DNA of 64,000 nt from Pacificoceanicola onchidii (GTDB lineage Bacteria; Pseudomonadota; Alphaproteobacteria; Rhodobacterales; Rhodobacteraceae): the NCBI RefSeq assembly GCF_004804335.1, contig NZ_SRXY01000011.1:1-64000 (forward strand), in the 5' to 3' direction. Made by a program: the position numbers and the translations under genes. The notes beneath the pieces are model-generated. The model worked only from the letters and a program-made list of their open reading frames with translations. It did no database searches and was not told where the DNA came from. Shown here in pieces: positions 5,166 to 64,000 of the stretch; position 1 is the first letter of the stretch; every line of letters begins with the position of its first letter.

Positions 5166-5971
5166 GATGGTGTCTCCACGGCGGCCTTGTCGGGTACGAT
5201 CTGCGCCCAGGCGTTTTCAAGGTGAGGCGGGATTGTGCCGCCCCAGGAACGGGTGATCTGGCGGCTGGCCTCGATCAGATGGGTCATGATCCGGCTGGCC
5301 AGTTGAGTGCTGAAGCGCGAGGCGACGGCGGCGACGGAGACCGCCCCGGCAAACAGGCCGGTCTGGTCGAACACCGGCGCGGAAATGCTCTGAACATCGT
5401 CTTCGTAGCTTTTGTGGGACTGGCCGAACCCGGTGGCCCGCGCGTCTTGGGCAAAGCGGCGCAGCGCCGCTTCGGTTACGGGGGTCGCCTCGGTGAAAGC
5501 CTGCGTGTTGGCAAGGGCTGCGTCGAAGAGCCTGTCCGGCCCAAACGCCAGCGCCGCAATCCCGGATGCGGTGGCGTGAAGCGGGAAGACGGTGATGTCG
5601 ATGATCACGCGGGTGGCGTGCCGGGGCGATTCGCAGGAGGCCAGTGAATACATCGTCTCCCCTGACAGGACAGAGACATGCGCCGTCTCGCCGGTCTGTT
5701 CGGCCAGCCGTGCAAGAGCGGCCTGCGCCGCCGCCTTGCGGGGGACGGTGATCTCGCGCACCGAAGCCAGATGCATCAGGGCCGGGCCGAGGCGATAGGC
5801 CTTGGTCAGCGGGTTCTGCTCGACAAAGAACGTGCTCTCAAGCGCCTGCAGGTGGCGATAGGTCGTCGTCTTGTCCCGTCCCGCGAGGCGGCACAGTTGC
5901 GACAGCCCGATCTCCGGCCGGGCTGCGGTGAACAGGGGCAAAAGCTCCAGAGCTTTGGACACAGAGGACAT
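5162..5971 (-). CDS. IclR-family transcriptional regulator
   Basis: This 269-aa regulator has an N-terminal winged helix-turn-helix (about 1-65, with LCRLAGRDKTTTYRHLQALE) and a C-terminal effector domain of the IclR type (about 80-250). It heads the leftward operon with the aminotransferase and metallohydrolase, and is divergent from the TTT transporter genes. The intervening region holds a perfect 6-5-6 inverted repeat at 6051-6067 that is a good candidate for its operator. It therefore probably controls both directions in response to the transported compound or a breakdown product. Confidence 0.92.
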   Translation of the reverse strand: MSSVSKALELLPLFTAARPEIGLSQLCRLAGRDKTTTYRHLQALESTFFVEQNPLTKAYRLGPALMHLASVREITVPRKAAAQAALARLAEQTGETAHVSVLSGETMYSLASCESPRHATRVIIDITVFPLHATASGIAALAFGPDRLFDAALANTQAFTEATPVTEAALRRFAQDARATGFGQSHKSYEDDVQSISAPVFDQTGLFAGAVSVAAVASRFSTQLASRIMTHLIEASRQITRSWGGTIPPHLENAWAQIVPDKAAVETPS

Positions 5972-8391: not shown

Positions 8392-9876
8392 ATGGACCAG
8401 AGCAAGATCGAGGCCCTGCGGGCCGCCCCCTTGGAGCCGTTTGGGCACCTGATTGACGGCAAGTCCGTTGCGGCCTCGGACGGGGCGGTGATGGAGGTTG
8501 TCTCTCCGATTGACGGGCAGGTGTTGACCACCGTGGCGAAAGGCACGGCGGAGGACATGAACAGGGCCATCGCCTCTGCCCGCGCCGCCTTCGAGGATGG
8601 GCGCTGGTCCGGCATGCCCCCGGCGGCGCGCAAGGCGGTGATGCACCGCTGGGCCGATCTGATCGAGCAGCACGCGCTGGAGCTGGCGGTGCTGGGCGTG
8701 CGCGACAATGGTACGGAAATCGGCATGGCGCTGAAGGCCGAGCCGGGCTCGGCAGCGGCGACGATCCGATATTATGCCGAGGCGCTGGACAAGGTGTATG
8801 GCGAGATCGCGCCCACGTCCGGGGATGTGCTGGGGCTGGTTCACAAGGAGCCTGTCGGGGTTGTGGGGGCTATCATACCGTGGAATTTCCCGATGATGAT
8901 CGGCGCCTGGAAACTGGGGCCGGCGCTGGCCATGGGCAATTCGGTGGTTCTGAAACCGGCAGAGACCGCCTCGCTGTCCCTGATGCGGATGTGCGCGCTG
9001 GCGCTGGAGGCGGGTCTGCCGTCGGGTGTGCTCAACGCGGTCACCGGCGAAGGTGCGGTGGTGGGTGAGGCGCTGGGATTGTCGATGGATGTCGATGTGC
9101 TGGTGTTCACCGGCTCGGGCGGCACCGGGCGCAGGCTGCTCCGGTATGCGGCGCAGTCCAACCTCAAGCGGGTTTACCTTGAGCTGGGCGGCAAATCGCC
9201 GAACATCGTTTTTGCCGATGCGCCGAACCTCGACGAGGCCGCGAAGGTCGCGGCGGGCGGGATTTTCCGCAATGCCGGGCAGGTCTGTGTGGCGGGCTCG
9301 CGCCTTTTGGTCGAGCGGGCGATCCACGATGAGTTTGTCGCGGCGGTTGCCCGCGCGGCGGAGGCGATGCGCGTTGGTGATCCGCTGGATGTGTCGACGC
9401 AGATCGGGGCTGTGAACTCCGAGACCCAGATGGCGCAGAACCTGCGCTTTGTGGAAACCGCGACGGCGGAGGGCGGCGAGATCGTCACGGGGGGCGGGCG
9501 GATCCTTCAGGAGACCGGCGGGACCTACATGGCGCCCACGGTTGTCAGCGGCGTGACGCCGGAGGCGACGCTTTTTCAAAACGAGGTGTTCGGGCCGGTG
9601 CTTGCGGTGACGGCGTTTGAGGGCGACGATGACGCCATTCGCCTCGCCAATGCGACGGACTTTGGTCTGGCGGGCGGGGTCTGGACGTCAAACCTGAGCC
9701 GCGCCCACCGGATGATCCGCGCGGTGCGCACCGGCGTGATGCATGTGAACACCTATGGCGGGGCCGATGGGACGGTGCCGTTGGGCGGGGTCGGACAATC
9801 GGGCAATGGCGCGGACAAATCCCTGCACGCGATTGAGAAATACATCGATCTCAAGACCGCCTGGATCAAACTGTAA
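8392..9876 (+). CDS. NAD(P)-dependent aldehyde dehydrogenase
   Basis: This 494-aa class I/II-like aldehyde dehydrogenase oxidises an aldehyde to the acid. Landmarks are PWNFPMM at the cofactor site, FTGSGGTG, the general base in LELGGKSPN, and the nucleophile in GQVCVAGSR (Cys299). I use ATG 8392, preceded by AAAGGTAAGGG; the longer frame would overlap tctA. It is the third gene of the TTT operon and is followed after nine bases by a Tm-1-like gene. It probably handles an intermediate of the compound that TctAB imports. The aldehyde is not identifiable from sequence. Confidence 0.92.
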   Translation: MDQSKIEALRAAPLEPFGHLIDGKSVAASDGAVMEVVSPIDGQVLTTVAKGTAEDMNRAIASARAAFEDGRWSGMPPAARKAVMHRWADLIEQHALELAVLGVRDNGTEIGMALKAEPGSAAATIRYYAEALDKVYGEIAPTSGDVLGLVHKEPVGVVGAIIPWNFPMMIGAWKLGPALAMGNSVVLKPAETASLSLMRMCALALEAGLPSGVLNAVTGEGAVVGEALGLSMDVDVLVFTGSGGTGRRLLRYAAQSNLKRVYLELGGKSPNIVFADAPNLDEAAKVAAGGIFRNAGQVCVAGSRLLVERAIHDEFVAAVARAAEAMRVGDPLDVSTQIGAVNSETQMAQNLRFVETATAEGGEIVTGGGRILQETGGTYMAPTVVSGVTPEATLFQNEVFGPVLAVTAFEGDDDAIRLANATDFGLAGGVWTSNLSRAHRMIRAVRTGVMHVNTYGGADGTVPLGGVGQSGNGADKSLHAIEKYIDLKTAWIKL

Positions 9877-50755: not shown

Positions 50756-51232
50756 TTATTGCTCGATCTGAGCCCACAGTACGACCAGCGTCGTGCAATC
50801 GAGGCACATGCCCGGATCGGTGAAGATCATGCGCGAATGCCGACCCTTCGCACCAAAGACTTCGTTGATCAGATGTGATGCACCGTTCAACGCTTGCGGC
50901 TGTTCGATGAATTCGGGTGTCGCCTGTACGGATCCTTCCAGACGGATGATCCGTTTGATCCGGCTTAGCTCGCCAACGGCGGATTTCAGCTGCGCAATCG
51001 CATTCAGGGCGGAGATCCGAAACGATTGATAGCCGTCCTCGGCCGTCAACACATCGCCAAGTTTGCCCGAGTATTTCATGTCGCCGTCGATCCACGGCAG
51101 CTGGCCGGATGTGTAAATGATCCCGTTCGCCTCAACCCACGGCTCATAGTCGCCCACTGCAGATGGAACCGGCGGCAGCTCAAGGCCAAGAGCTTCCAGG
51201 CGTTGTTCTGGGGTCAGTGTTTCGTCAAGCAT
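50756..51232 (-). CDS. RidA-family protein 1
   Basis: This 158-aa YjgF/YER057c/UK114 member belongs to the longer subgroup starting LGLELPPVPSAVGDY. It shows IIYTSGQLPW, LNGASHLINEVFG, HSRMIFTDPGMCLDCTTLVVLWAQ, with the arginine that in RidA binds imine carboxylates. RidA speeds hydrolysis of enamines/imines to ketones and ammonia. ATG 51232 has GGGAGGA upstream. It heads the leftward OYE 2-TRAP 2 operon. A near twin lies at 60.3 kb. A TTTCA-type palindrome is in its leader. Confidence 0.9.
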   Translation of the reverse strand: MLDETLTPEQRLEALGLELPPVPSAVGDYEPWVEANGIIYTSGQLPWIDGDMKYSGKLGDVLTAEDGYQSFRISALNAIAQLKSAVGELSRIKRIIRLEGSVQATPEFIEQPQALNGASHLINEVFGAKGRHSRMIFTDPGMCLDCTTLVVLWAQIEQ

Positions 51233-51745
51233 GTCGTCCTCCCTAATTTCTTTCACTATTAGTAAAAAAATATTTTGCGAACAACTGTTTTTGTACCGGG
51301 ATTTGTAAATCATTGATTATTTGAAAGAAACTGATTGTGGTAATGTCCGGGGGCTCGTCTGGGGTTGGCGTCACTTGTGAAATCATCCAGCCTTCGCCGG
51401 GATGAGAAAAATATACATTTAATCATGCGGTTATGCTGCTTCTGGCGTGCGGGGCGGTGACTTTCAGGCCACGAATCAGTCTTGATGGGTGTCTCTGAGG
51501 GTCGAGTGAGGCCTCTGATCGGGTGGGCGATGCACGGCAATTGTCAGCCGGAGAACCTTGGCGCTTTCATTTAATGAAAGTTTGAATTCAGCCTTCCGGC
51601 TCCGCTCTTCCGGATGACTGGCGGATCGCTCCTACGCATCTATCCGATAATTGCGGATGATATTTTCGTTACTAGCCCATTTATCCGGAAATGACGCAGC
51701 CGTATGTTCGGGTCAATTCAACAATCAACGTAAAGGACCCAAGCA
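51233..51745. promoter_or_regulatory. 513-base divergent region of RidA 1 and ABM 3
   Basis: No gene was recognised. TTTCACTATTAGTAAAA lies 18-35 bases ahead of the RidA 1 start at about 51250-51267. CTTTCATTTAATGAAAG, a perfect 17-bp palindrome, lies at 51564-51580, 166 bases before ABM 3. A related site precedes RidA 2 at 60266-60282. AT-rich DNA around 51260-51330 looks promoter-like. Confidence 0.6.
51564..51580. promoter_or_regulatory. Perfect CTTTCATT-T-AATGAAAG palindrome
   Basis: This is an 8-1-8 inverted repeat followed by TTTG, as is the related site before RidA 2. It is a candidate operator shared by the RidA/ABM genes. The regulator is unknown; the IclR at 45.5 kb and the Lrp at 53.5 kb are the nearest. 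Confidence 0.6.
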
Positions 51746-53934: not shown

Positions 53935-54246
53935 CGGGTGTCTCCTGACCAAAAAGCAGCGATTCCCTTGGCGGGATTGCATCGTTCATACAACCGGTCG
54001 CGCCTCCGAGCCTGAAAACGAATGCTTTGCGCCCGTTCTTGGCGGACTCCACCAACATCTGCGCTAATTTTGCAGAAAGTCAGCGCACCCGCTGCTTTTC
54101 CAGCCGTGATTTGCCGACTTTTGCGCTGCCTGTGGCGGTAATCTTCCCGTCGCCTGATCGTGGAATTCGTCTGCGACTGGTTCGGCAAGCGCCGGGGTTT
54201 CTGCCCCGATGCGCCACCACCAAGAAGCCAAAGGGACGCGTTACGG
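53935..54246. other. 312-base leader of the pyruvate dehydrogenase operon
   Basis: No gene was recognised. TGCGCT (near 54059) and AGCGCA (near 54084) form an inverted pair around GCTAATTTTGCAG, a possible Lrp-type or other regulator site. A clear AAAGGGA ribosome site ends the region. Confidence 0.4.
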
Positions 54247-56928
54247 ATGCAAAATCGATCTCAGATCTCGGAAGTTGATACCGATCCAATCGAGACGCAG
54301 GAATGGGTCGACGCGCTGACAAGCACGAAGACGATCGCCGGCAGCGAACGCGCCCAGTTCATCTTGAAAGCTCTGGACGACAGGGCCCGGGTTGAAGGCC
54401 TCCTGACCGGGGAGCAGCCGTACTCGTCTTATCGCAACACCATTCCTGTGGAGCAGCAAGGCACCTATCCCGGCGATCTGGAGATCGAAAACCGATTGAC
54501 CTCCATCATTCGCTGGAACGCGCTGGCCACAGTTGTGCGTGCGAACGAGGCTTACGGCGGGCTGGGGGGTCATATCGCCAGCTATGCCTCAGCGGCAGAG
54601 ATTTTCGAGATGGGGTTCAACCACTTCTTCCGCGCCCGGACCGAGGATTTCGGCGGGGATCTGGTCTACTACCAGCCGCACTCCGCGCCTGGGATCTATG
54701 CCCGCGCAAACCTCGAAGGGCGTCTGAGCTCCGAACAGTTGGACAATTACCGACAGGAAGTTGCCGGGAACGGGTTGTGTTCCTATCCGCATCCCTGGCT
54801 GATGCCGGAGTTTTGGCAGTTCCCAACCGGGTCGATGGGGATCGGGCCGCTCAACGCCGTCTATCAGGCGCGCTACATGCGGTATTTGCAGGCCCGCGGC
54901 CTTGCCGACACGCAAGAGCGCCACGTTTGGGGCGTCTATGGTGACGGTGAAATGGATGAGCCGGAGTCCATCGCTGGTCTGACGCTCGCGGCCCGCGAAG
55001 GGCTCGACAACCTGACCTTCATCATCAACTGCAACCTGCAACGGCTCGATGGTCCGGTGCGGGGCAACGGGCAGGTGATCCAGGAACTGGAGTCCCTGTT
55101 CATCGGCGCAGGCTGGAATGTCATCAAGGTGCTTTGGGGCTCCGAATGGGACGAGATCTTTGCCCGGGACAAGGACAACATTCTGTTGCGGCGTTTCGCT
55201 GAAACCGTGGACGGGCAATATCAGAACCTTGGTGCCAAGGATGGCGATTATAACCGCGACAAGTTCTTCAATGCAGATCCGGGGTCTGCTGCGCTCGTGG
55301 CACATATGACCGAGACCGAGATCAACAATCTCAAGCGTGGCGGTCACGACTTCCGCAAACTGCACGCGGCCTTCGCGGCTGCAAAAGCGCACAAAGGACG
55401 CCCGACGGTCATCCTCGCCAAGACCAAAAAGGGATTTGGCATGGGCGGCGCGGGCGAATCCCGGATGATCGCGCACCAAGCCAAGAAACTGGACACGGAG
55501 GCGCTGTATCAGTTCCGCTCCCGCTTTGATCTGCCGATGTCGGATGAGGATGTCGAGAAGATGCGTATCTTCAGGCCGGATCCCGACAGCGAGGAAATGG
55601 TCTACATGAAAGAGCGCCGCGAAGCGCTCGGCGGCTACATGCCCGTCCGCGTGCCCAAGGCACCCCAATCGGTCGTGGCCAAGACGCCGGACCTTGCAAA
55701 ATATGGCAAGTTCGCGCTCGAAGCGAACGGCAAGGAGATGTCCACCACAATGGCCGCCGTGCGGATGATGGGCGGGATGCTCAAGGACAAGACCTTTGGT
55801 CCGCGCATCGTGCCGATCGTCGCGGATGAGGCGCGCACCTTTGGCATGGATAACCTGTTCCGCCAAATCGGGATCTACGCTCCAGAAGGACAGCTCTACG
55901 AGCCCGAGGATGCCGGGTCGATGATGTTCTACAAGGAATCCGCAACCGGTCAGCTTCTTGAAGAAGGCATCACCGAAGCAGGCGCCTTGTCGTCGTGGGT
56001 GGCCGCAGCGACCTCCTATTCGATCCACGGCATGCCGATGCTGCCGATCTACATCTACTATTCGATGTTCGGGTTCCAACGGGTAGGTGATCTCATCTGG
56101 GCGGCGGCCGACCAGCGCGCGCGCGGGTTCCTGCTTGGTGCGACAGCCGGGCGGACCACGCTTTCGGGCGAAGGGTTGCAGCACCAGGACGGGACCAGCC
56201 ACCTGATCTCGGCAACCATCCCCAACTGCCGCAGCTATGATCCCGCGTTTGCCTATGAGCTAGCCGTGATCATGGACCACGGCACCAAGCGGATGATGGA
56301 AGAGCAGATTGACGAGTTCTATTACATCACCGTGATGAACGAGAACTATGCCCAGCCGTCGCTGCCCGATGGCTGCGAAGAGGGCATTCTCAAAGGTCTC
56401 TACAAGCTGAACAGTGAGGGAGACGCGGCCTCTGATACGCGGGTGAACCTGGTTGGATCCGGTACAATCCTTCTTGAAGTGATCGAAGCCGCGAAAATCC
56501 TCGCCTCCGATTTCGGCATCGCGTCTGATATCTTCAGTGCCACCAGTTTCTCCGAGTTGTCTCGCGACGCGGAGGAAACGGAACGTCAGAACCGGTTTGA
56601 TCCGCAAGCCTCTCCGCGCCAGTCCCATGTGCAAAAACTGCTTGGCTCGGAAGCGCCTGTGGTGGCCGCGACGGATTATGTGCGCGCCGTTCCTCAGATG
56701 ATCGCACAGCATGTGCCCCAGAGGTTCGTGGCCTTGGGCACCGACGGATTTGGCCGCAGCGACCAGCGGGCCAACCTCCGCGCCTTCTTTGAAGTGGACC
56801 GGCAGAACATTGCGCTGGCCGCGATCGAGGCCTTGGTGCGCGATGGCAAGATCGATGCCTCTGTGCAGCAAGAGGCCTTGAAAACCTTCGGTATGCAGGC
56901 CGGTCAGCCTGCGCCCTGGACCGTGTAG
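54247..56928 (+). CDS. aceE: Pyruvate dehydrogenase E1, homodimeric
   Basis: This 893-aa ThDP-dependent E1 decarboxylates pyruvate and passes the acetyl group to the E2 lipoyl domain. It is the homodimeric AceE form (E. coli 887 aa). Visible are NRLTSIIRWNALATV, YYQPHSAPGIYARA, the ThDP/Mg motif GDGEMDEPES near residue 231 with INCNLQRLDGPV, and TAGRTTLSGEGLQHQDG. I start at ATG 54247, with AAAGGGA upstream. Alphaproteobacteria more often use the two-chain PdhA/PdhB E1, so a second, possibly catabolic, complex is likely. The operon is aceE-aceF-lpdA. Confidence 0.97.
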   Translation: MQNRSQISEVDTDPIETQEWVDALTSTKTIAGSERAQFILKALDDRARVEGLLTGEQPYSSYRNTIPVEQQGTYPGDLEIENRLTSIIRWNALATVVRANEAYGGLGGHIASYASAAEIFEMGFNHFFRARTEDFGGDLVYYQPHSAPGIYARANLEGRLSSEQLDNYRQEVAGNGLCSYPHPWLMPEFWQFPTGSMGIGPLNAVYQARYMRYLQARGLADTQERHVWGVYGDGEMDEPESIAGLTLAAREGLDNLTFIINCNLQRLDGPVRGNGQVIQELESLFIGAGWNVIKVLWGSEWDEIFARDKDNILLRRFAETVDGQYQNLGAKDGDYNRDKFFNADPGSAALVAHMTETEINNLKRGGHDFRKLHAAFAAAKAHKGRPTVILAKTKKGFGMGGAGESRMIAHQAKKLDTEALYQFRSRFDLPMSDEDVEKMRIFRPDPDSEEMVYMKERREALGGYMPVRVPKAPQSVVAKTPDLAKYGKFALEANGKEMSTTMAAVRMMGGMLKDKTFGPRIVPIVADEARTFGMDNLFRQIGIYAPEGQLYEPEDAGSMMFYKESATGQLLEEGITEAGALSSWVAAATSYSIHGMPMLPIYIYYSMFGFQRVGDLIWAAADQRARGFLLGATAGRTTLSGEGLQHQDGTSHLISATIPNCRSYDPAFAYELAVIMDHGTKRMMEEQIDEFYYITVMNENYAQPSLPDGCEEGILKGLYKLNSEGDAASDTRVNLVGSGTILLEVIEAAKILASDFGIASDIFSATSFSELSRDAEETERQNRFDPQASPRQSHVQKLLGSEAPVVAATDYVRAVPQMIAQHVPQRFVALGTDGFGRSDQRANLRAFFEVDRQNIALAAIEALVRDGKIDASVQQEALKTFGMQAGQPAPWTV

Positions 56929-56940
56929 GAAGGCGGACCC

Positions 56941-58248
56941 ATGACAAACACAATTGATCTGCACATCCCCGACATCGGTGATTTCAAAGACGTTCCGGTG
57001 ATTGAGCTTTCGGTGTCCGTGGGCGATGCAATCGCGGAAGACGACACAATTCTGGTCTTGGAAAGCGACAAGGCGACCTTGGACGTTCCGGCGACAAACG
57101 GCGGGACGGTGGCCGAGATCCTGGTTGCAGAAGGTGATACTGTCTCGGAAGGCGATCTGGTCCTGCGTCTGACCGGAACGGGCGAAGCCACAGCGGAGCC
57201 GCAACCCGCCGCTGCGGCGCAAAGCGATCCAGCACCGGAACCCGCGCCTGTTTCCGCATCTGCGCCAAAGCCCGATCCCGCACCTGCACCTGCACCTGCG
57301 CCGGCGCCCACCCTGCCTCTGCCGGGACCAAAAGCGGGTCATCGCGTCTATGCCTCGCCTTCCATACGCAAGTTTGCGCGGGAGTTGGGCGTGGACGTGA
57401 GCCTTGTCAGCGGCACAGGCATAAAAGGCCGAGTCACCCGCGAGGACGTGGCAGATTTTGTCAAATCGGCCCTTCAGGCCCCTGCGGCATCGGCCCCATC
57501 CGCCGGAACCGAGTTGGGTCTGGCCCTGCCCGCGTGGCCCAAGGTCGACTACGAGAAGTTCGGCCCGGTGTCGCGCAAGAAGCTGTCGCGGATCGCGCGG
57601 ATTTCCGGGCCAAGCCTGGCCCGGAACTCGGTTATCATTCCGCACGTCACCAATTTTGAAAGCGCCGATATCACCGATCTCGAAACCTTTCGAAAGCAGG
57701 TGAATGCCGAGGCGCGCGACGGCTCCAAAATGACCATTCTTGCCTTCGTCGTGAAGGCGGTGGTCGCGGCGTTGAAAGCGCATCCGACGTTCAACAGCTC
57801 GCTGGAGGGCGATGAACTGGTGATGAAGGAATACTACCACATTGGCGTTGCTGCGGACACGCCCGAAGGTCTCGTTGTGCCGGTGGTCAAGAATGCCGAT
57901 CAGAAGAGTCTCAAGGAAATTGCCGCCGAGATGGGGGACCTTGCCGGGCAGGCGCGTGACGGTAAGCTGAAGCCAGCGGACATGCAGGGCGGGACCTTCA
58001 CCATCTCGTCTTTGGGAGGCATTGGCGGTGACAACTTCACGCCGATCATCAATGCGCCCGAGGTTGCAATTCTGGGCATGGTCCGATCGTCGATCCAACC
58101 CGTCTGGGACGGCGCGGCTTTCCAGCCCCGACTGATCCAGCCGATGAGCCTCAGCTGGGATCACCGTGTGGTCGATGGCGTCGCTGCGGCGCGCTTCCTC
58201 AAAACCGTTCAGGCGATCCTTCAGGATTTCCGGCGCATTAATCTTTGA
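56941..58248 (+). CDS. aceF: Dihydrolipoamide acetyltransferase (E2)
   Basis: This 435-aa E2 core carries one lipoyl domain (1-78, lipoyl-lysine Lys44 in [10 protein letters not shown]), an Ala/Pro-rich linker (about 80-120), a peripheral-subunit-binding domain (about 136-172, [22 protein letters not shown]) and the catalytic acyltransferase domain with His408 and Asp412 in HRVVDG. It starts 12 bases after aceE. E. coli AceF has three lipoyl domains; here one resides on E2 and a second on E3, an alternative distribution of swinging arms. Confidence 0.96.
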
Positions 58249-58260
58249 CTGGAGCCGAAC

Positions 58261-59985
58261 ATGTCTTTCAAAGTTGAGATACCCGACATTGGCGATTTTT
58301 CGGATGTGCCGGTCATCGAGGTCAACGTTGCCGTTGGCGATACGGTCGAGGTCGATGATCCGATCCTGCTTCTGGAGAGCGACAAGGCCACGTTGGATAT
58401 TCCGGCACCGGTGGCCGGGACGGTGTCCGAACTGCTTGTATCGGTTGGCGATGTCGTCAGCCGGGGGTCTGCCGTCATGGTGATCGAAGCGGCGGCTGGC
58501 GCGGATCCGGTCGCGCCTGCGAAGCCCGGCGCCAAGGCCGAGAGCGCAGAGGCCAGCCCCCCTGCCCCGAAACCCATGGCAGAGGTTCCCGAAAGCGATC
58601 ATCACGCGGATACCGTGGTGATTGGCGGCGGGCCCGGTGGCTACAGCGCCGCGTTCCGGGCTGCTGATCTGGGGCAGTCCGTGATCCTGATCGACAGCGG
58701 TGACACCTTGGGTGGCGTCTGCCTGAACGTTGGCTGTATTCCGTCAAAGGCGCTTTTGCATGTGGCCAAAGTCATGGACGAAGCCGAAGACATGTCGACC
58801 CATGGGGTCGACTACGGCAAGCCGCGATTTGATCTGGACAAGGTGCGGAACTGGAAGAGCAGTGTCGTCGCGCGGCTGACCGGCGGCCTCGATGGTCTTG
58901 CCCGCAGACGCAAGGTCAAGGTGCTGCGCGGCTATGGCACTTTTGCCGGCCCCAACCAGATTGTTGTTGCGACACAGGACGGTGATCAGACGGTTTCCTT
59001 TGCCAATGCAATCATCGCGGTTGGCTCCGCGCCGGTCAGGCTGCCGTTCCTGCCCGATGATCCCAGGGTCATCGACAGCACCGGTGCCTTGGCGCTTGAA
59101 GACATCCCTGCGCGGATGCTCGTTCTGGGCGGCGGGATCATTGGCATGGAACTCGGCCAGGTTTATCAGCGCTTTGGCGCAGAGGTGTCCGTTGTCGAGA
59201 TGATGCCGCAGATCATTCCGGGCGCGGACAAGGATATCGTCGCGCCTTTGATGAAGCGGATGTCGTCGCGGTTCAAAGAGATCATGCTGGAAACCCGCGT
59301 CACGGCTGTGCAGGCGACCGACGATGGGCTGGTTGCCACGTTTGAGAAAGGCTCGGACACGCGCCAGGAAACCTATGACAAGATCCTCGTGGCCGTAGGC
59401 CGGAGCCCGAATGGCGGCAAGGTTGCCGCCGATGCGGCGGGCGTTGCGGTGGATGAGCGCGGCTTCATTGCAGTCGATCGGCAGATGCGCACAAACATGC
59501 CGCACATCTTTGCAATCGGTGATGTGGTTGGCCAGCCGATGCTGGCGCATAAGGCGGTTCATGAAGGCCATGTCGCGGCTGAGGTGATCGCCGGACACAG
59601 GGCGGCCTTTGATGCGGCGGTCATCCCGTCCGTTGCCTATTCCGATCCGGAGGTCGCCTGGGTCGGCCTGACCGAGACAGATGCCAAGGCGCAGGGGGTC
59701 AAGGTCAAGAAAGCGGTCTTTCCCTGGATGGCCTCTGGCCGCTCTTTGTCCATGGGGCGCGACGAAGGGCTGACAAAGTTGATTTTTGATCCCAAGACAA
59801 AGGTGATCCTGGGTGCGGGCATTGTTGGCCAGGGCGCGGGCGATCTGATCGCTGAGATTGCGCTTGCAATCGAGATGGGCGCGGACGCCGAAGACATTGC
59901 GCTCACGGTTCATCCGCATCCAACGCTTTCAGAATCCGTGGGCCTTGCGGCGGAGGTCTTTGAAGGGACCATTACGGATCTTTGA
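58261..59985 (+). CDS. lpdA: Dihydrolipoyl dehydrogenase (E3) with N-terminal lipoyl domain
   Basis: This 574-aa E3 reoxidises the lipoyl arm with FAD and NAD. An extra lipoyl domain precedes the enzyme (1-76, Lys42 in [10 protein letters not shown]) with an Ala/Pro-rich linker to 112. The flavoprotein follows: IGGGPGG (121-127), the redox disulfide in GGVCLNVGCIPSK (Cys154, Cys159), the NAD motif VLGGGIIGMELG and the C-terminal HPHPTLSE with the catalytic His-Glu pair. It is 12 bases after aceF. A terminator follows. Confidence 0.96.
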   Translation: MSFKVEIPDIGDFSDVPVIEVNVAVGDTVEVDDPILLLESDKATLDIPAPVAGTVSELLVSVGDVVSRGSAVMVIEAAAGADPVAPAKPGAKAESAEASPPAPKPMAEVPESDHHADTVVIGGGPGGYSAAFRAADLGQSVILIDSGDTLGGVCLNVGCIPSKALLHVAKVMDEAEDMSTHGVDYGKPRFDLDKVRNWKSSVVARLTGGLDGLARRRKVKVLRGYGTFAGPNQIVVATQDGDQTVSFANAIIAVGSAPVRLPFLPDDPRVIDSTGALALEDIPARMLVLGGGIIGMELGQVYQRFGAEVSVVEMMPQIIPGADKDIVAPLMKRMSSRFKEIMLETRVTAVQATDDGLVATFEKGSDTRQETYDKILVAVGRSPNGGKVAADAAGVAVDERGFIAVDRQMRTNMPHIFAIGDVVGQPMLAHKAVHEGHVAAEVIAGHRAAFDAAVIPSVAYSDPEVAWVGLTETDAKAQGVKVKKAVFPWMASGRSLSMGRDEGLTKLIFDPKTKVILGAGIVGQGAGDLIAEIALAIEMGADAEDIALTVHPHPTLSESVGLAAEVFEGTITDL

Positions 59986-60265: not shown

Positions 60266-60282
60266 CTTTCTATTATTGAAAG
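60266..60282. promoter_or_regulatory. TTTC/GAAA motif ahead of RidA 2
   Basis: CTTTCTATTATTGAAAG has 5-bp arms around seven bases, and is followed by TTTGGGAGG and the GTG start. It matches the palindrome at 51564-51580 in arms, spacing and the trailing TTTG, and resembles the RidA 1 leader. It lies so near the start that a bound protein would block expression. Confidence 0.55.
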
Positions 60283-60296
60283 TTTGGGAGGATCAC

Positions 60297-60782
60297 GTGG
60301 AACTGAAGAGCGTAAGCGGCGCAACGCCCGAAGAGCGGCTGGCGGAACTTGGCCTGGAACTGCCGCCGGTGCCATCTGCCGTTGCTGACTATGTGACACA
60401 TACGCAGATCGGCAACATCATCTACACCTCGGGCATGCTGCCCTGGATTAATGGCGAGTTGCAGTTCACCGGTATCATGGGGGACAATCTATCCGTTGAG
60501 GATGGCTACGCTGCGTTCCAGCTTTCGGCGCTGAACGGGATTGCACTGCTGAAGTCCATCGTCGGTGACCTTTCCAGGATCAAGAAAATCCACCGGCTCG
60601 AAGGCACCGGCTGCGCGACCAAGGATTTCTTCGACATGCCGCGCGCGCTGAACGGGGCGTCTCATCTCGTCAACACGGTTTTTGGCGAGGCAGGCGCGCA
60701 TTCGCGGATGATCTTCTCCAACCCGTCGATGCCGATTGATTGCGCGACACTTGTTGTGTTCTGGGCGGAGGTCTCGGAATGA
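60297..60782 (+). CDS. RidA-family protein 2
   Basis: This 161-aa RidA-family protein is a close paralogue of the copy at 50.8 kb; both have LGLELPPVPSAV, IIYTSG, SRIK, RALNGASHLVN/QALNGASHLIN and AHSRMIF or RHSRMIF. I start at GTG 60297, with GGGAGGA six bases upstream. Its stop overlaps the cupin 2 start (ATGA). It should remove reactive enamine/imine intermediates, or act as a specific deaminase, in the pathway. The pairing with a cupin and TRAP genes is the main clue. Confidence 0.9.
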   Translation: MELKSVSGATPEERLAELGLELPPVPSAVADYVTHTQIGNIIYTSGMLPWINGELQFTGIMGDNLSVEDGYAAFQLSALNGIALLKSIVGDLSRIKKIHRLEGTGCATKDFFDMPRALNGASHLVNTVFGEAGAHSRMIFSNPSMPIDCATLVVFWAEVSE

Positions 60783-61162
60783 GTTTGGACCTTTCACAAG
60801 AGTTCGCCGAAAGAACAGGGATCGGCGAAGTCGGAAGCGCGCTTGTCTCCGAGACCGATCGGGTCCGGGTTTGGCACATCCTTGCGCGGCCGGGCGAACG
60901 CCTCAAGGGACACACGCATGCGCTGGATTACTTCTGGACGATCCACGGGCCGGGCAAGGCGCGCAACTACAAATCCGACGGGACCTATGCTGACGTGGAA
61001 TACGCCGCCGGGGACACGACGCACATGTCTTTCGCCGCCGGTGAGAGCATGACGCATAGCCTGGAAAACACTGGCGACACGGATCTCGTTTTCACGACCG
61101 TCGAGTTCAAGGACTCGGCGAACAAACCACTACCGCGCAACGCAAGGGAAGCAGCGGGCTAA
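60779..61162 (+). CDS. Small cupin-domain protein 2
   Basis: This 127-aa cupin is a paralogue of the protein at 44.9 kb. Recognisable parts are ETDRVRVWHI, PGERLKGHTHALDYFWTI with two histidines, AGDTTHMSFAAGESMTHSLENTGDTDLVF. One position of the usual HxH-E set reads HTH-D, so metal binding may differ from that of cupin 1. Translation is coupled to RidA 2 by a four-base overlap. The function is unknown. Confidence 0.87.
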   Translation: MSLDLSQEFAERTGIGEVGSALVSETDRVRVWHILARPGERLKGHTHALDYFWTIHGPGKARNYKSDGTYADVEYAAGDTTHMSFAAGESMTHSLENTGDTDLVFTTVEFKDSANKPLPRNAREAAG

Positions 61163-61260: not shown

Positions 61261-62337
61261 ATGACAAAAGTAACTCGACGCGGCTTTGCGGCAGGGCTGG
61301 GTTTGGCGGGCGCAAGCGCGCTGGCCGCACCGGCCATTGCTCAGGGAAAGAAAGAGCTTCGGATGCTCATGGCCTGGCCGAAGAACTTTCCGGGCCTCGG
61401 CACCAGCGCAGACCGCTTCGCACAACGTGTGAACACGCTGTCGGACGGCAGCATCTCGGTGAAAGTGTTTGGGGCCGGTGAGATCGTCTCGCCGTTCGAA
61501 GTGCTGGACGCCGTGGCGTCCGGTGCAGGCGATATCACACACGATACGTCCTACTACTGGCTCGGCAAGGATCCGGCCTTTGTCTATTTTGCCGTTGTGC
61601 CGTTCGGTCTCACAGCGGATGAGCACATGACCTGGCTCAAGTTTGGCGGCGGTCAGGAACTTTGGGACAAGCTGGGCGCGCAACACGGTGTCAAACCGCT
61701 GGCGGTCCTGAACACCGGCGCGCAGATGGGCGGTTGGTTCAAAGAAGAAATCAACTCGGCGGATGATCTTCAGGGCAAGAAAGTCCGCTATCCGGGCATC
61801 GGCGGCCAGATGCTGTCCGAGCTCGGCGCCATTCCGACAAACATTCCGGGTGGCGAGCTTTTCACGGCGCTTCAGTCCGGCACGATCGACGGTTTGGAAT
61901 GGGTCGCTCCCTGGAATGATCTGGCGTTCGGCTTCCATCGTGTGGCCAAGCATTATTACTATCCCGGCTTCCACGAGATGGGTCACTCGCTGTCCTCCTA
62001 CATCAACCTCGATGTGTGGAATGACATGAGCGAACTCGAGCAGGCGATCATCCAGAACGCGGCGGACGCGGAGTATTCGGTTGGATTGGCTGAGTTCAAT
62101 GCGCGCAACAATGCAGCGCTGAGCCAGCTCGTGAACGAGCACGGCGTCGAGTTGCACCAGTGGCCGGAAGACATCGTGTCGAAGATGCAGGAAATCCTGC
62201 CGCGCGTGATGGCGGATCATGCCGCCAAGAGCGAGATGGCCACGGAAGTTGCCGCCAGCTGGACAGAGTTCCGCGATCAGCAACGCGCCTGGGGCAATGT
62301 GACCGACTACATCAATGCTGGTCTGAAAAAAGGGTAA
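61261..62337 (+). CDS. TRAP solute-binding protein, TakP-like, Tat-exported
   Basis: This 358-aa DctP-type binding protein is of the TakP group, which binds 2-oxo acids such as pyruvate. A twin-arginine signal (Arg6-Arg7 in TRRGF, cleavage after IAQ) precedes KELRMLMAWPKNFPGLG. Further marks are GWFKEEINSADDLQGKKVRYPGIGG and LFTALQSGTIDGLEWVAPWND. ATG 61261 has GGGAGGA upstream; the longer frame is not needed. The adjacent pyruvate dehydrogenase operon fits pyruvate or another keto acid as ligand, though this is inference. Confidence 0.92.
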   Translation: MTKVTRRGFAAGLGLAGASALAAPAIAQGKKELRMLMAWPKNFPGLGTSADRFAQRVNTLSDGSISVKVFGAGEIVSPFEVLDAVASGAGDITHDTSYYWLGKDPAFVYFAVVPFGLTADEHMTWLKFGGGQELWDKLGAQHGVKPLAVLNTGAQMGGWFKEEINSADDLQGKKVRYPGIGGQMLSELGAIPTNIPGGELFTALQSGTIDGLEWVAPWNDLAFGFHRVAKHYYYPGFHEMGHSLSSYINLDVWNDMSELEQAIIQNAADAEYSVGLAEFNARNNAALSQLVNEHGVELHQWPEDIVSKMQEILPRVMADHAAKSEMATEVAASWTEFRDQQRAWGNVTDYINAGLKKG

Positions 62338-62343
62338 CGCGCC

Positions 62344-63138
62344 ATGACTGAGCCGTTGATCATGGGCCAGGTTGGTCTGAGCTTTCATACAGCGGCTGCG
62401 GCCGTACTCGCCGAGGTCCTCGAGGACCTCGGCCACACTATCGAAATTCGCGAAGCACCCCATGAGGAGATGTTCGCGATGCTGGGTCGGGGCGAGGTCG
62501 ATCTCGTCTGTTCGGCCTGGCTGCCCGCATCTCACGGAGGCTACATCGCACCGTTCGAGGATGAGATCGAGAAGCTGGCGGTGATCTATACGCCCTACTG
62601 CATCTGGGGTATTTCTGCGGATGCGCCCGATGACATCCAGTCTGTCGAAGATCTCGCCAAGCCCGATGTCGCGGCCAAGTTGCGCAAGCTGATTCAGGGG
62701 ATCACGCCGGGGGCCGGCATCAGCCGGTTCTCTCGTCAGATGATCGTCGATTATCAACTGGAGCAACACGGTTTCCACTTTCAGAACGGGACCGTGGACG
62801 ATTGCTGCGGCGCTTATCTGGATGCGACAGCCGCAGGCGATCTTGCGATTGTGCCGCTTTGGCATCCGCAATGGCTGCACACCGAAGCAAAGCTGCGCGA
62901 GTTGAAAGACCCCAAAGGCCTGCTTGGCGGTCAGGACGATGCCACCATGGTTCTGCGCAAGGATGCGGCCCACAAAGTGTCCGCTCAAGGCATCCAGTTT
63001 CTGCGAAAAGTGTCCCTCGAGAATGCCGTGGTTTCGGAACTTGACCAGGCGATCTGCAGAGAAGGTCTGACCGCTCGCGAGGCCGCCAAACGTTGGATCG
63101 GTGAGAACCGATCGACCGTTGACGGATGGATGGAGTAA
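62344..63138 (+). CDS. OpuAC/glycine-betaine-type binding protein without signal peptide
   Basis: This 264-aa protein matches the substrate-binding domain of betaine ABC importers (OpuAC/ProX type): GQVGLSFHTAAAAVLAEVLEDLG, VDLVCSAWLPASHGGY, and AIVPLWHPQW. It starts directly with that fold and has no signal peptide, so it should be cytoplasmic. It lies six bases after the TRAP binding-protein gene and five bases before dctQ, with no ABC ATPase or permease. It may sense a betaine-like ligand in the cytosol or be an enzyme-like relative. This is unusual for a TRAP operon. Confidence 0.85.
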   Translation: MTEPLIMGQVGLSFHTAAAAVLAEVLEDLGHTIEIREAPHEEMFAMLGRGEVDLVCSAWLPASHGGYIAPFEDEIEKLAVIYTPYCIWGISADAPDDIQSVEDLAKPDVAAKLRKLIQGITPGAGISRFSRQMIVDYQLEQHGFHFQNGTVDDCCGAYLDATAAGDLAIVPLWHPQWLHTEAKLRELKDPKGLLGGQDDATMVLRKDAAHKVSAQGIQFLRKVSLENAVVSELDQAICREGLTAREAAKRWIGENRSTVDGWME

Positions 63139-63143
63139 AGCAG

Positions 63144-63656
63144 ATGGCTGAATCCTTGGACCATTTGTCCGGTGACACAATCGTCGATAAGATCGTCGGG
63201 GCCGTTGGCGTCTTTGCGCGCTGGCTTTGCCTTTTGCTCGTTCTTCTTCAATTCAGCGTCGTTGTCGCGCGGTATCTTTTTGAAACAGGGTCCGTGATGG
63301 CACAGGAATCTATCCTGTTCACCTTCGGGTCCATGTTCATGCTCGCGCTGGCGGATGCCTTGAAAAACGGGCGGCACGTCCGGGTCGACATGATCTTCCA
63401 TGGCCTTTCGTCACGGGCACAACGCCGTGTTGATGCGATCGGGATCGTCGTGTTTCTGCTGCCACTTTGCGTCTACATGCTCCTCTTGTCCTGGCCGTAT
63501 GTAAGCAGTTCCTGGGCTGCGCTGGAGGGATCGCGGGAAGCGGGCGGTCTTCCGGGTGTTTTTCTGCTGAAGACAGTGATCCTGATAGCCCTCGTTCTCG
63601 TGATCGCCCAATCGCTCGTCATCTTGAACCGCTGCATCCAGCGCTGGAGTGAATGA
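63144..63656 (+). CDS. dctQ: TRAP transporter 3 small permease DctQ
   Basis: This 170-aa four-helix DctQ-type subunit includes [21 protein letters not shown], the family's conserved cytoplasmic loop. I prefer ATG 63144, preceded by GGAG and after the OpuAC stop; ATG 63126 would overlap that gene. The large permease begins two bases after the stop. It is unlike TRAP 1 and 2 DctQ, so this is a separate transporter lineage. Confidence 0.9.
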
Positions 63657-63658
63657 TC

Positions 63659-64000
63659 ATGGATCTCGCAAACTTTTTCCTCACGGCTTTTGTCGTGGCT
63701 CTGTTGCTGTGCCTGATGTCCGGCTTTCCGGTTGCCTTTGTGCTGGGCGGCGTCTCATTGATCATGGCGGGTCTGGGCGCGCTTTTTGGTGTCTTTGACA
63801 CGTCCTTTCTGATCGCCATGCCGCAACGCACCTTTGCTGCAATGAACAACGACATCCTGCTGGCTGTTCCGCTTTTTGTCTTCATGGGGGCCATGTTGGA
63901 ACGCTCCGGCATCGCTACGGAGCTGCTGGATGGCATTGGTCGACTGTTCGGCAAAAGGCGGGGCGGCTTGGGCTATGCGGTCACTTTGGTTGGTGCTCTG
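63659..64000 (+). CDS. dctM: TRAP transporter 3 large permease DctM (partial)
   Basis: The first 114 codons of a DctM permease run off the window end. Starting ATG 63659, it reads [19 protein letters not shown], then [14 protein letters not shown], and [20 protein letters not shown] near residues 74-93, all typical of DctM/TakM N-termini. It completes the TakP-like TRAP set. The rest cannot be seen. Confidence 0.93.

Follow-up and report, generated by a model that had tools for sequence, protein, structure and literature searches.

A TRAP transporter operon of Pacificoceanicola onchidii contains, between its receptor and small permease genes, a gene for an OpuAC-type protein without an export signal. 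It lies near the end of the 64,000-nucleotide stretch of DNA that we analysed as a whole and call the window. The reading that we favour, and to which we give about an even chance, is that the product is cytosolic and descends from an OpuAC solute-binding protein (SBP) that was exported, with an enzyme somewhat likelier than a non-catalytic carrier or sensor. More tentatively, and at clearly less than an even chance, the leaderless clade to which this protein belongs may consist of undescribed cytosolic enzymes that arose from a betaine-type receptor through loss of the leader and the replacements Tyr15 to His and Trp154 to Cys. These proteins would serve in reactive-carbonyl or keto-acid metabolism and would move between gene neighbourhoods, one of which is the TRAP operon that imports the substrate.

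Such genes are publicly annotated as "glycine betaine ABC transporter substrate-binding protein", which is probably wrong in both place and function. Loss of export, change of residues and arrival of new neighbours can be traced on one tree in this clade, so that the transition from a receptor to a protein inside the cell becomes testable with few proteins. For marine Rhodobacterales, the clade also hints at an unassigned step of keto-acid or reactive-carbonyl metabolism that is often plasmid-borne.

The leaderless gene and its operon

The genes discussed below are listed here with their coordinates in the window or, where stated, in the contig that continues it.

54160..56928, plus strand: homodimeric 2-oxo acid dehydrogenase E1 (pyruvate dehydrogenase E1-like); PF17831, E 2.7e-100, over 54235-56925
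56941-58248, plus strand: E2 of the 2-oxo acid dehydrogenase complex, from sequence reading and the gene order of locus L015 (Phaeobacter inhibens, see below)
58261-59985, plus strand: E3 of the same complex, from sequence reading and the L015 order
60276..60782, plus strand: RidA-like gene; PF14588, E 3.2e-39
60740..61162, plus strand: small cupin-like gene in the interval between RidA and dctP; no Pfam match, NCBIfam bicupin at E 1.6e-5, far below the cut-off
61261..62337, plus strand: dctP, TRAP receptor of keto-acid type; PF03480, E 1.9e-52; twin-arginine leader (TRRGF) recognized by eye
62335..62337, plus strand: TAA, stop codon of dctP, read in the sequence in frame 2 codons 5' of the opuAC ATG
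62344..63138, plus strand: opuAC, leaderless OpuAC-domain protein of 264 aa; open reading frame with ATG start and PF04069 match
63144..63656, plus strand: dctQ, TRAP small permease; PF04290, E 6.2e-14 (query from 63126); start from comparison with locus L010 (Rhodobacter, see below)
63653..64000, plus strand: dctM, TRAP large permease, cut at the window end and running on to 65200 in the contig; from the open reading frame list and the contig
65210-65977 of the contig: IclR regulator gene, after dctM; IclR Pfam match

The 264-residue opuAC product matches the Pfam OpuAC profile PF04069 (E 4.9e-43, 148 bits, cut-off 21.2) over profile positions 2-256 of 257, with the domain setting in at residue 4. 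The codons preceding its ATG at 62344 read TAA-CGC-GCC, dctP and opuAC share one frame, and 2 residues separate the preceding stop from the start of the OpuAC profile. An earlier note on this DNA had described a full OpuAC-type fold that begins directly at the domain and has no export signal, and this description holds; a start farther upstream that would add a signal peptide, which it had named as evidence to the contrary, is excluded because the TAA of dctP stands in the opuAC frame. With the stop two codons before its ATG, the protein lacks the export signal of an ABC betaine or choline receptor, and it does not have the DctP or TAXI fold of a TRAP receptor either, as Pfam returns OpuAC and no DctP. 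One SBP domain without a leader is the sequence pattern of a cytosolic SBP-fold protein.

The close flanking by dctP and dctQ was likewise borne out, with a gap of 6 nt between the end of dctP at 62337 and the opuAC ATG and of 5 nt between the opuAC stop and the dctQ ATG at 63144, a start picked by its match to the L010 relative; an alternative longer reading of dctQ from 63126 overlaps opuAC. No ProW homologue was found within 3.3 kb of opuAC in the contig, in agreement with the reported lack of ABC partners. The sole ATPase match nearby is an ABC ATPase on the opposite strand, ca. 3 kb past the end of opuAC; judged by eye, it appears to be of polar-amino-acid rather than betaine type. A RidA-like frame (by eye) lies beside an ABC ATPase on the minus strand at ca. 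66.8-67.3 kb of the contig, and a second PF14588 RidA-like gene is found at 50756-51313 (minus strand), some 9 kb before the RidA-like gene of the TRAP cluster.

Among solved chains, those nearest to the dctP product are 4pet, 5cm6, 7ug8 ("Ketoacid-binding protein") and 2hzk, and the import substrate of this TRAP system is therefore likely a keto acid or close analogue. The chain 2hzk is TakP, an alpha-keto acid receptor; a receptor of this kind is reportedly the subject of an earlier study (PMC1839085). While dctP groups with these keto-acid receptors (7ug8, 2hzk), its OpuAC neighbour matches OpuAC and not DctP, and we know of no TRAP system that needs an OpuAC-type protein. Upstream, the product of 54235-56925 is best matched by solved chains of PDH E1, and the genes in the same order at L015 are annotated as 2-oxo acid dehydrogenase E2 and lpdA.

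Compared with its nearest relative (L010) over 229 codons, opuAC has a saturated pS of 0.76 against a pN of 0.10, which shows that it is maintained by selection; its pN is similar to those of dctQ (0.10) and dctP (0.07) in the same comparison. Another pair of opuAC genes, L027 and L017, gave a dN/dS of 0.08. We also considered a DctP-OpuAC readthrough fusion, given that the two frames are shared in the window (TAA plus 6 nt), and rejected it: the dctP and opuAC frames differ in P. inhibens, so that export by readthrough is not conserved. L010 has a possible GTG start in the dctP frame 3 nt past the dctP stop.

Relatives and gene neighbourhoods

The opuAC gene is rare in its family, with matches (E 1e-15 or better) in only 6 of 394 same-family genomes, own genome counted. 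The gene order dctP-opuAC-dctQ, for which the earlier note had suggested a search in other genomes, recurs at two loci. One is L010, a contig of a Rhodobacter MAG (treated as one with G276:C63), where opuAC is 85% identical in the best segment; its 5' part, at ca. 5290-5400, stands in another frame than the remainder, through assembly error or decay. The other is L015 on plasmid pDOK1-1-2 of Phaeobacter inhibens, where opuAC is 65% identical and the genes for E1-E2-E3 stand upstream of RidA-(small gene)-dctP-opuAC-dctQ-dctM-IclR. On plasmids of P. gallaeciensis, Alisedimentitalea and Leisingera and in family genome G388, opuAC (61.5-62.7% identical) follows genes for LysR and a Zn-alcohol dehydrogenase (Zn-ADH) outside a TRAP operon, with a RidA gene present at three of these four loci. 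RidA genes also precede opuAC at L015, L016, L017 and L027.

Farther afield, an alignment search at E 1e-40 found matches in 12 of 385 genomes of the class and 11 of 398 of the phylum, own genome counted in each. Leaving aside the own genome, L031 was the one subfamily member in the class set, where the other matches were canonical OpuAC or the divergent L037; the phylum set contained three (L042, L043 and L044). At E 1e-60, 8 of 247 genomes from the order of genome G929 matched, all with the leaderless type, while the 12 of 250 matches from the order of G988 comprised the leaderless type in G988 only and a leadered sister type in the other 11. No OpuAC relative was found in the viral contigs searched. 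Three leaderless members (L021 at 9001-9744, L022 at 8989-9729, and L013) end ca. 20 residues early, without the C-terminal stretch of the window protein.

Neighbour genes were searched 3.3 kb to either side of 23 core loci, i.e., 22 leaderless ones and L010. They include LysR (12 loci), Zn-ADH (8), MRJP (6), RidA of the PF14588 family (5), ABM monooxygenase (3), TRAP genes (3), old yellow enzyme (OYE, 2) and nitroreductase (2), with example identities checked by Pfam. At least one of LysR, ADH, OYE, nitroreductase, ABM, MRJP and RidA occurs at 18 of the 23, a count that is biased upward over the controls by a reference set taken from the same loci and that includes close kin (L056 and L023 are near copies) rather than only independent events. 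These classes were not seen at five core loci (L029, L057, L082, L088 and L010, where a partly readable RidA was left uncounted), at L019 and at the outlying leaderless L025 and L054. Canonical OpuAC genes differ, as ProV and ProW both adjoin them at 8 of 9 control loci, where OYE was seen at one. By comparison, ProW, the partner gene of an ABC betaine or choline receptor, was found within 3.3 kb at none of the 23 core loci, and the single ProV-like match is the opposite-strand ATPase near the window gene.

TRAP genes at 3 of the 23 core loci, in three lineages, represent one context among several. Plasmids indicate a wider link in Rhodobacterales: 10 records (of 216 with a match) carry opuAC at 60-80% identity, and the same 10 (of 634 matched) carry dctP at 60-80%, followed by a next-best dctP at 42%; the 10 stem from four species, with 7 P. 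gallaeciensis records of nearly one length. The TRAP genes lie ca. 10-23 kb from opuAC in three of these species, P. gallaeciensis, Alisedimentitalea and Leisingera, where they adjoin genes of cupin, glyoxalase-like and SDR type, joined in Leisingera by those for a ThDP-enzyme and an aldehyde dehydrogenase. The family genomes with a Roseobacter-type gene, G000, G276 and G388, have dctP at 100, 90 and 74% identity, in G388 on a different contig from opuAC, and genome G312 combines an opuAC at 47% with a best dctP of only 42%. In a draw of 194 family genomes, whose overlap with the 394 above is partly known, this dctP was found in G000 and in none of the 193 others. Thus, opuAC and this dctP travel together in Rhodobacterales even when they are not adjacent. 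Outside this order, G929 and G988 have members of the clade without this TRAP type, the best dctP being 39% identical in G929 and none reaching E 1e-30 in G988.

Leaders and pocket residues

Leaders were sought with a simple scan (not SignalP) for a start codon up to 60 codons upstream, a basic residue and then an uncharged hydrophobic 11-residue stretch. A stop lies at most 15 codons upstream of the domain in 15 of 25 core rows; of the other 10, eight have no leader-like stretch, L019 from Vibrio tubiashii has a Tat-like leader and the start of L010 is unreadable. Among these 10 rows, only L019 (1.37), L018 (0.46) and L025 (-0.31) received a score, compared to at least 1.68 for canonical rows and at least 2.0 for leadered sister rows; L037 had none, and L031 (borderline at 1.14) was classed as leaderless by eye. 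The longer upstream frames of L018, L013, L020, L022 and L025 contain no leader-like stretch by this hydrophobicity scan.

Pieces shorter than 200 aa, identical domains and scores below 35 were left out before alignment, among them L044/L053, a short piece with a Tat-like leader and SFY by eye. The tree further omits L034, L035 and L023 (near copies), L010 (frame) and, as too distant, L001 and the second of two L050 rows. In the resulting 56-row tree, the subfamily stands apart from canonical OpuAC with support of 100/100 and contains a clade of 23 rows (95/82), 22 of them leaderless plus the leadered L019. The window protein groups with L015, L012, L016, L017 and L018 at 100/100. Members of the clade come from Rhodobacterales, Rhizobium, Azospirillum, Paraburkholderia, Vibrio and one Persicobacter (Bacteroidota) plasmid, i.e., from alpha-, beta- and gammaproteobacteria plus one plasmid from another phylum. 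Mapped on the tree, the leader label needs a minimum of 4 changes, compared to 18.4 with shuffled labels. The leaderless L025 and L031 fall outside the clade on long branches, L025 (branch length 1.89) among leadered rows; L037 is placed unsurely within the clade on a branch of 3.66, and we rely on neither L037 nor L025.

The leader label goes along with two residues. The 41 subfamily rows comprise 22 that combine His15 and Cys154 with the lack of a leader, 14 that have a leader together with Tyr15 and Trp154, and one that has a leader together with Tyr15 and Phe154. The exceptions are L019 (leadered, H15/C154), L025 (leaderless, H15/V154), L031 (leaderless, Y15/W154) and L010 (gap at 15, Y154). 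None of 18 canonical rows has H15, H40, C154 or P171; Met occupies position 154, and A, E, T, S or a gap is found at position 15. The 23 core rows compared share 50 invariant positions. A close comparison is offered by the sister rows in the tree, which we call "LSFY" relatives (L069-L081 from the order of G988, and L014, L024 and L031). They resemble the clade in having H40 and P171 (16 of 16), mostly L12, F14 and L172-W173, and no ProV or ProW within 3.3 kb (0 of 15 loci). They differ from it in being leadered (15 of 16), in Tyr15 (16 of 16) and Trp154 (15, with Phe154 in one), and in having few redox-type neighbours: the 15 leadered sister loci gave an ADH or LysR match in 2 and a weak dctM match in one. 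The leadered LSFY sisters (L069-L081, with wider stretches L089-L101; L014/L030; L024) are in themselves exported OpuAC orphans.

Over its whole length, the window protein is homologous to the domain of OpuAC/ProX/ChoX receptors (PF04069), e.g., L. lactis OpuA (3l6g/7ahc) and B. subtilis OpuAC (2b4l), though it lies far below the cut-offs of the NCBIfam choline-binding and ProX models. No NCBIfam model specific to the clade showed up, as the 12 members tested match only the choline-binding model and, in six cases, also ProX. Two tryptophans of the L. lactis OpuA cage are presumably Trp330 and Trp377. An earlier study describes three cage tryptophans, naming Trp484, and a histidine, G437 and V438 that hold the carboxylate (PMC2861598). 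By alignment count, W59 and W173 of the window protein correspond to Trp377 and Trp484, and G125/I126 to G437/V438. The ligand-site histidine, printed as H392 there and counted as 382 in the alignment, corresponds to H64, and we took the printed number to be a slip. Unlike L. lactis OpuA, the window protein has Leu12 at the position of Trp330, so that by alignment two of three cage tryptophans are kept; 13 canonical rows have W at this position and 5 have a gap, and of 25 core rows all have L except L025 with Glu and L010 with a gap. The pocket thus appears to keep its carboxylate side and two aromatic walls with the third wall changed, and His15 and Cys154 are predicted to lie in the cleft. 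As 23 of the 25 core rows have Leu in place of one cage tryptophan, the label "betaine-type" should not be taken to mean "betaine-binding", and betaine as an assumed ligand was set aside on account of this incomplete cage. A structure model from a two-row alignment (pLDDT 42) was discarded.

Candidate functions

The absence of a leader across a conserved and selected clade is strong evidence for a cytosolic location, retained cleft residues make ligand binding plausible with moderate confidence, and the recurring association with the same neighbours suggests, again with moderate confidence, a role in their pathway. An enzyme rather than a sensor or carrier is weakly to moderately favoured by the new invariant His and Cys and by the lack of a constant regulatory partner; conservation makes H15 and C154 candidate catalytic residues. 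The protein would still close its two-lobed cleft around a small ligand, with Trp59, Trp173 and His64 to hold it, in a pocket that would have lost its third cage tryptophan and gained His15 and Cys154. The ligand would be a metabolite of the pathway served by the neighbour genes. In the window genome, the ligand would probably be what the keto-acid-type TRAP system imports and hands over to the 2-oxo acid dehydrogenase complex encoded upstream, and the OpuAC-fold enzyme would act on this intermediate, e.g., by isomerisation, hydration or hydrolysis. The proposal of a cytosolic binding protein that senses or buffers the imported ligand or has become an enzyme is upheld as the most likely reading by the missing export signal, the lack of betaine ABC partners and the tight TRAP operon, whereas tying it to the TRAP operon proved too narrow, as TRAP genes adjoin only 3 of 23 core loci.

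Enzymes of this origin have precedents. MqnA and MqnD evolved from solute-binding proteins and, like cyclohexadienyl dehydratase, belong to SBP families other than OpuAC. Cyclohexadienyl dehydratase is a further binding fold turned enzyme (PMC7683729). Cytosolic single-domain proteins in SBP Pfam families are a known category that made up ca. 1% of the proteins retrieved in a survey (PMC9602780). The earlier note knew of no described example; for a leaderless OpuAC clade, no description appeared among the matches listed in a literature search that left subscription journals mostly outside.

A non-catalytic cytosolic protein that binds the imported compound, whether to buffer or channel it or to signal its level to a LysR or IclR regulator, is a possibility on the doubtful side of even. 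In its favour, the pocket retains two of the three cage tryptophans, the histidine of the carboxylate site and the GxG ligand loop, which makes ligand binding plausible, and a LysR gene lies within 3.3 kb of 12 of 23 core loci, with an IclR gene ending the TRAP operon in both the window and P. inhibens. However, no regulator is constant, as LysR was not found nearby at the other 11 loci and TRAP operons end in IclR or TetR, and a carrier would not need the new invariant His and Cys. More improbable by far is that the protein rides piggyback through the membrane on a folded, Tat-borne DctP and serves as second receptor or partner of this transporter. All seven DctP proteins examined (window, L010, L015, L108, L109, L110 and L128) carry a twin-arginine leader; in three lineages, opuAC is closely coupled to the TRAP genes, and within Rhodobacterales it occurs together with them. 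Yet members outside this order are leaderless too, such a DctP was not found in G929, G988 or G312 at the thresholds given above, and opuAC stands apart from dctP in four Rhodobacterales lineages; piggyback export is possible for the TRAP cases only. The least probable explanation, which we consider very unlikely, is that the gene is what remains of an ABC binding protein, decaying or mis-started and without function. The missing leader and partners, the out-of-frame 5' end of L010 and the early ends of L021, L022 and L013 would fit such decay, but they are outweighed by the low pN and dN/dS values of both gene pairs compared, by the 50 invariant positions and by a leaderless state common to a clade that spans classes.

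A plasmid of V. tubiashii carries both types of the protein, the leaderless L056 (7001-7783) and the Tat-leadered L019 (8881-9810); genes of VOC, aldehyde dehydrogenase and acetolactate-synthase-like type precede L019.
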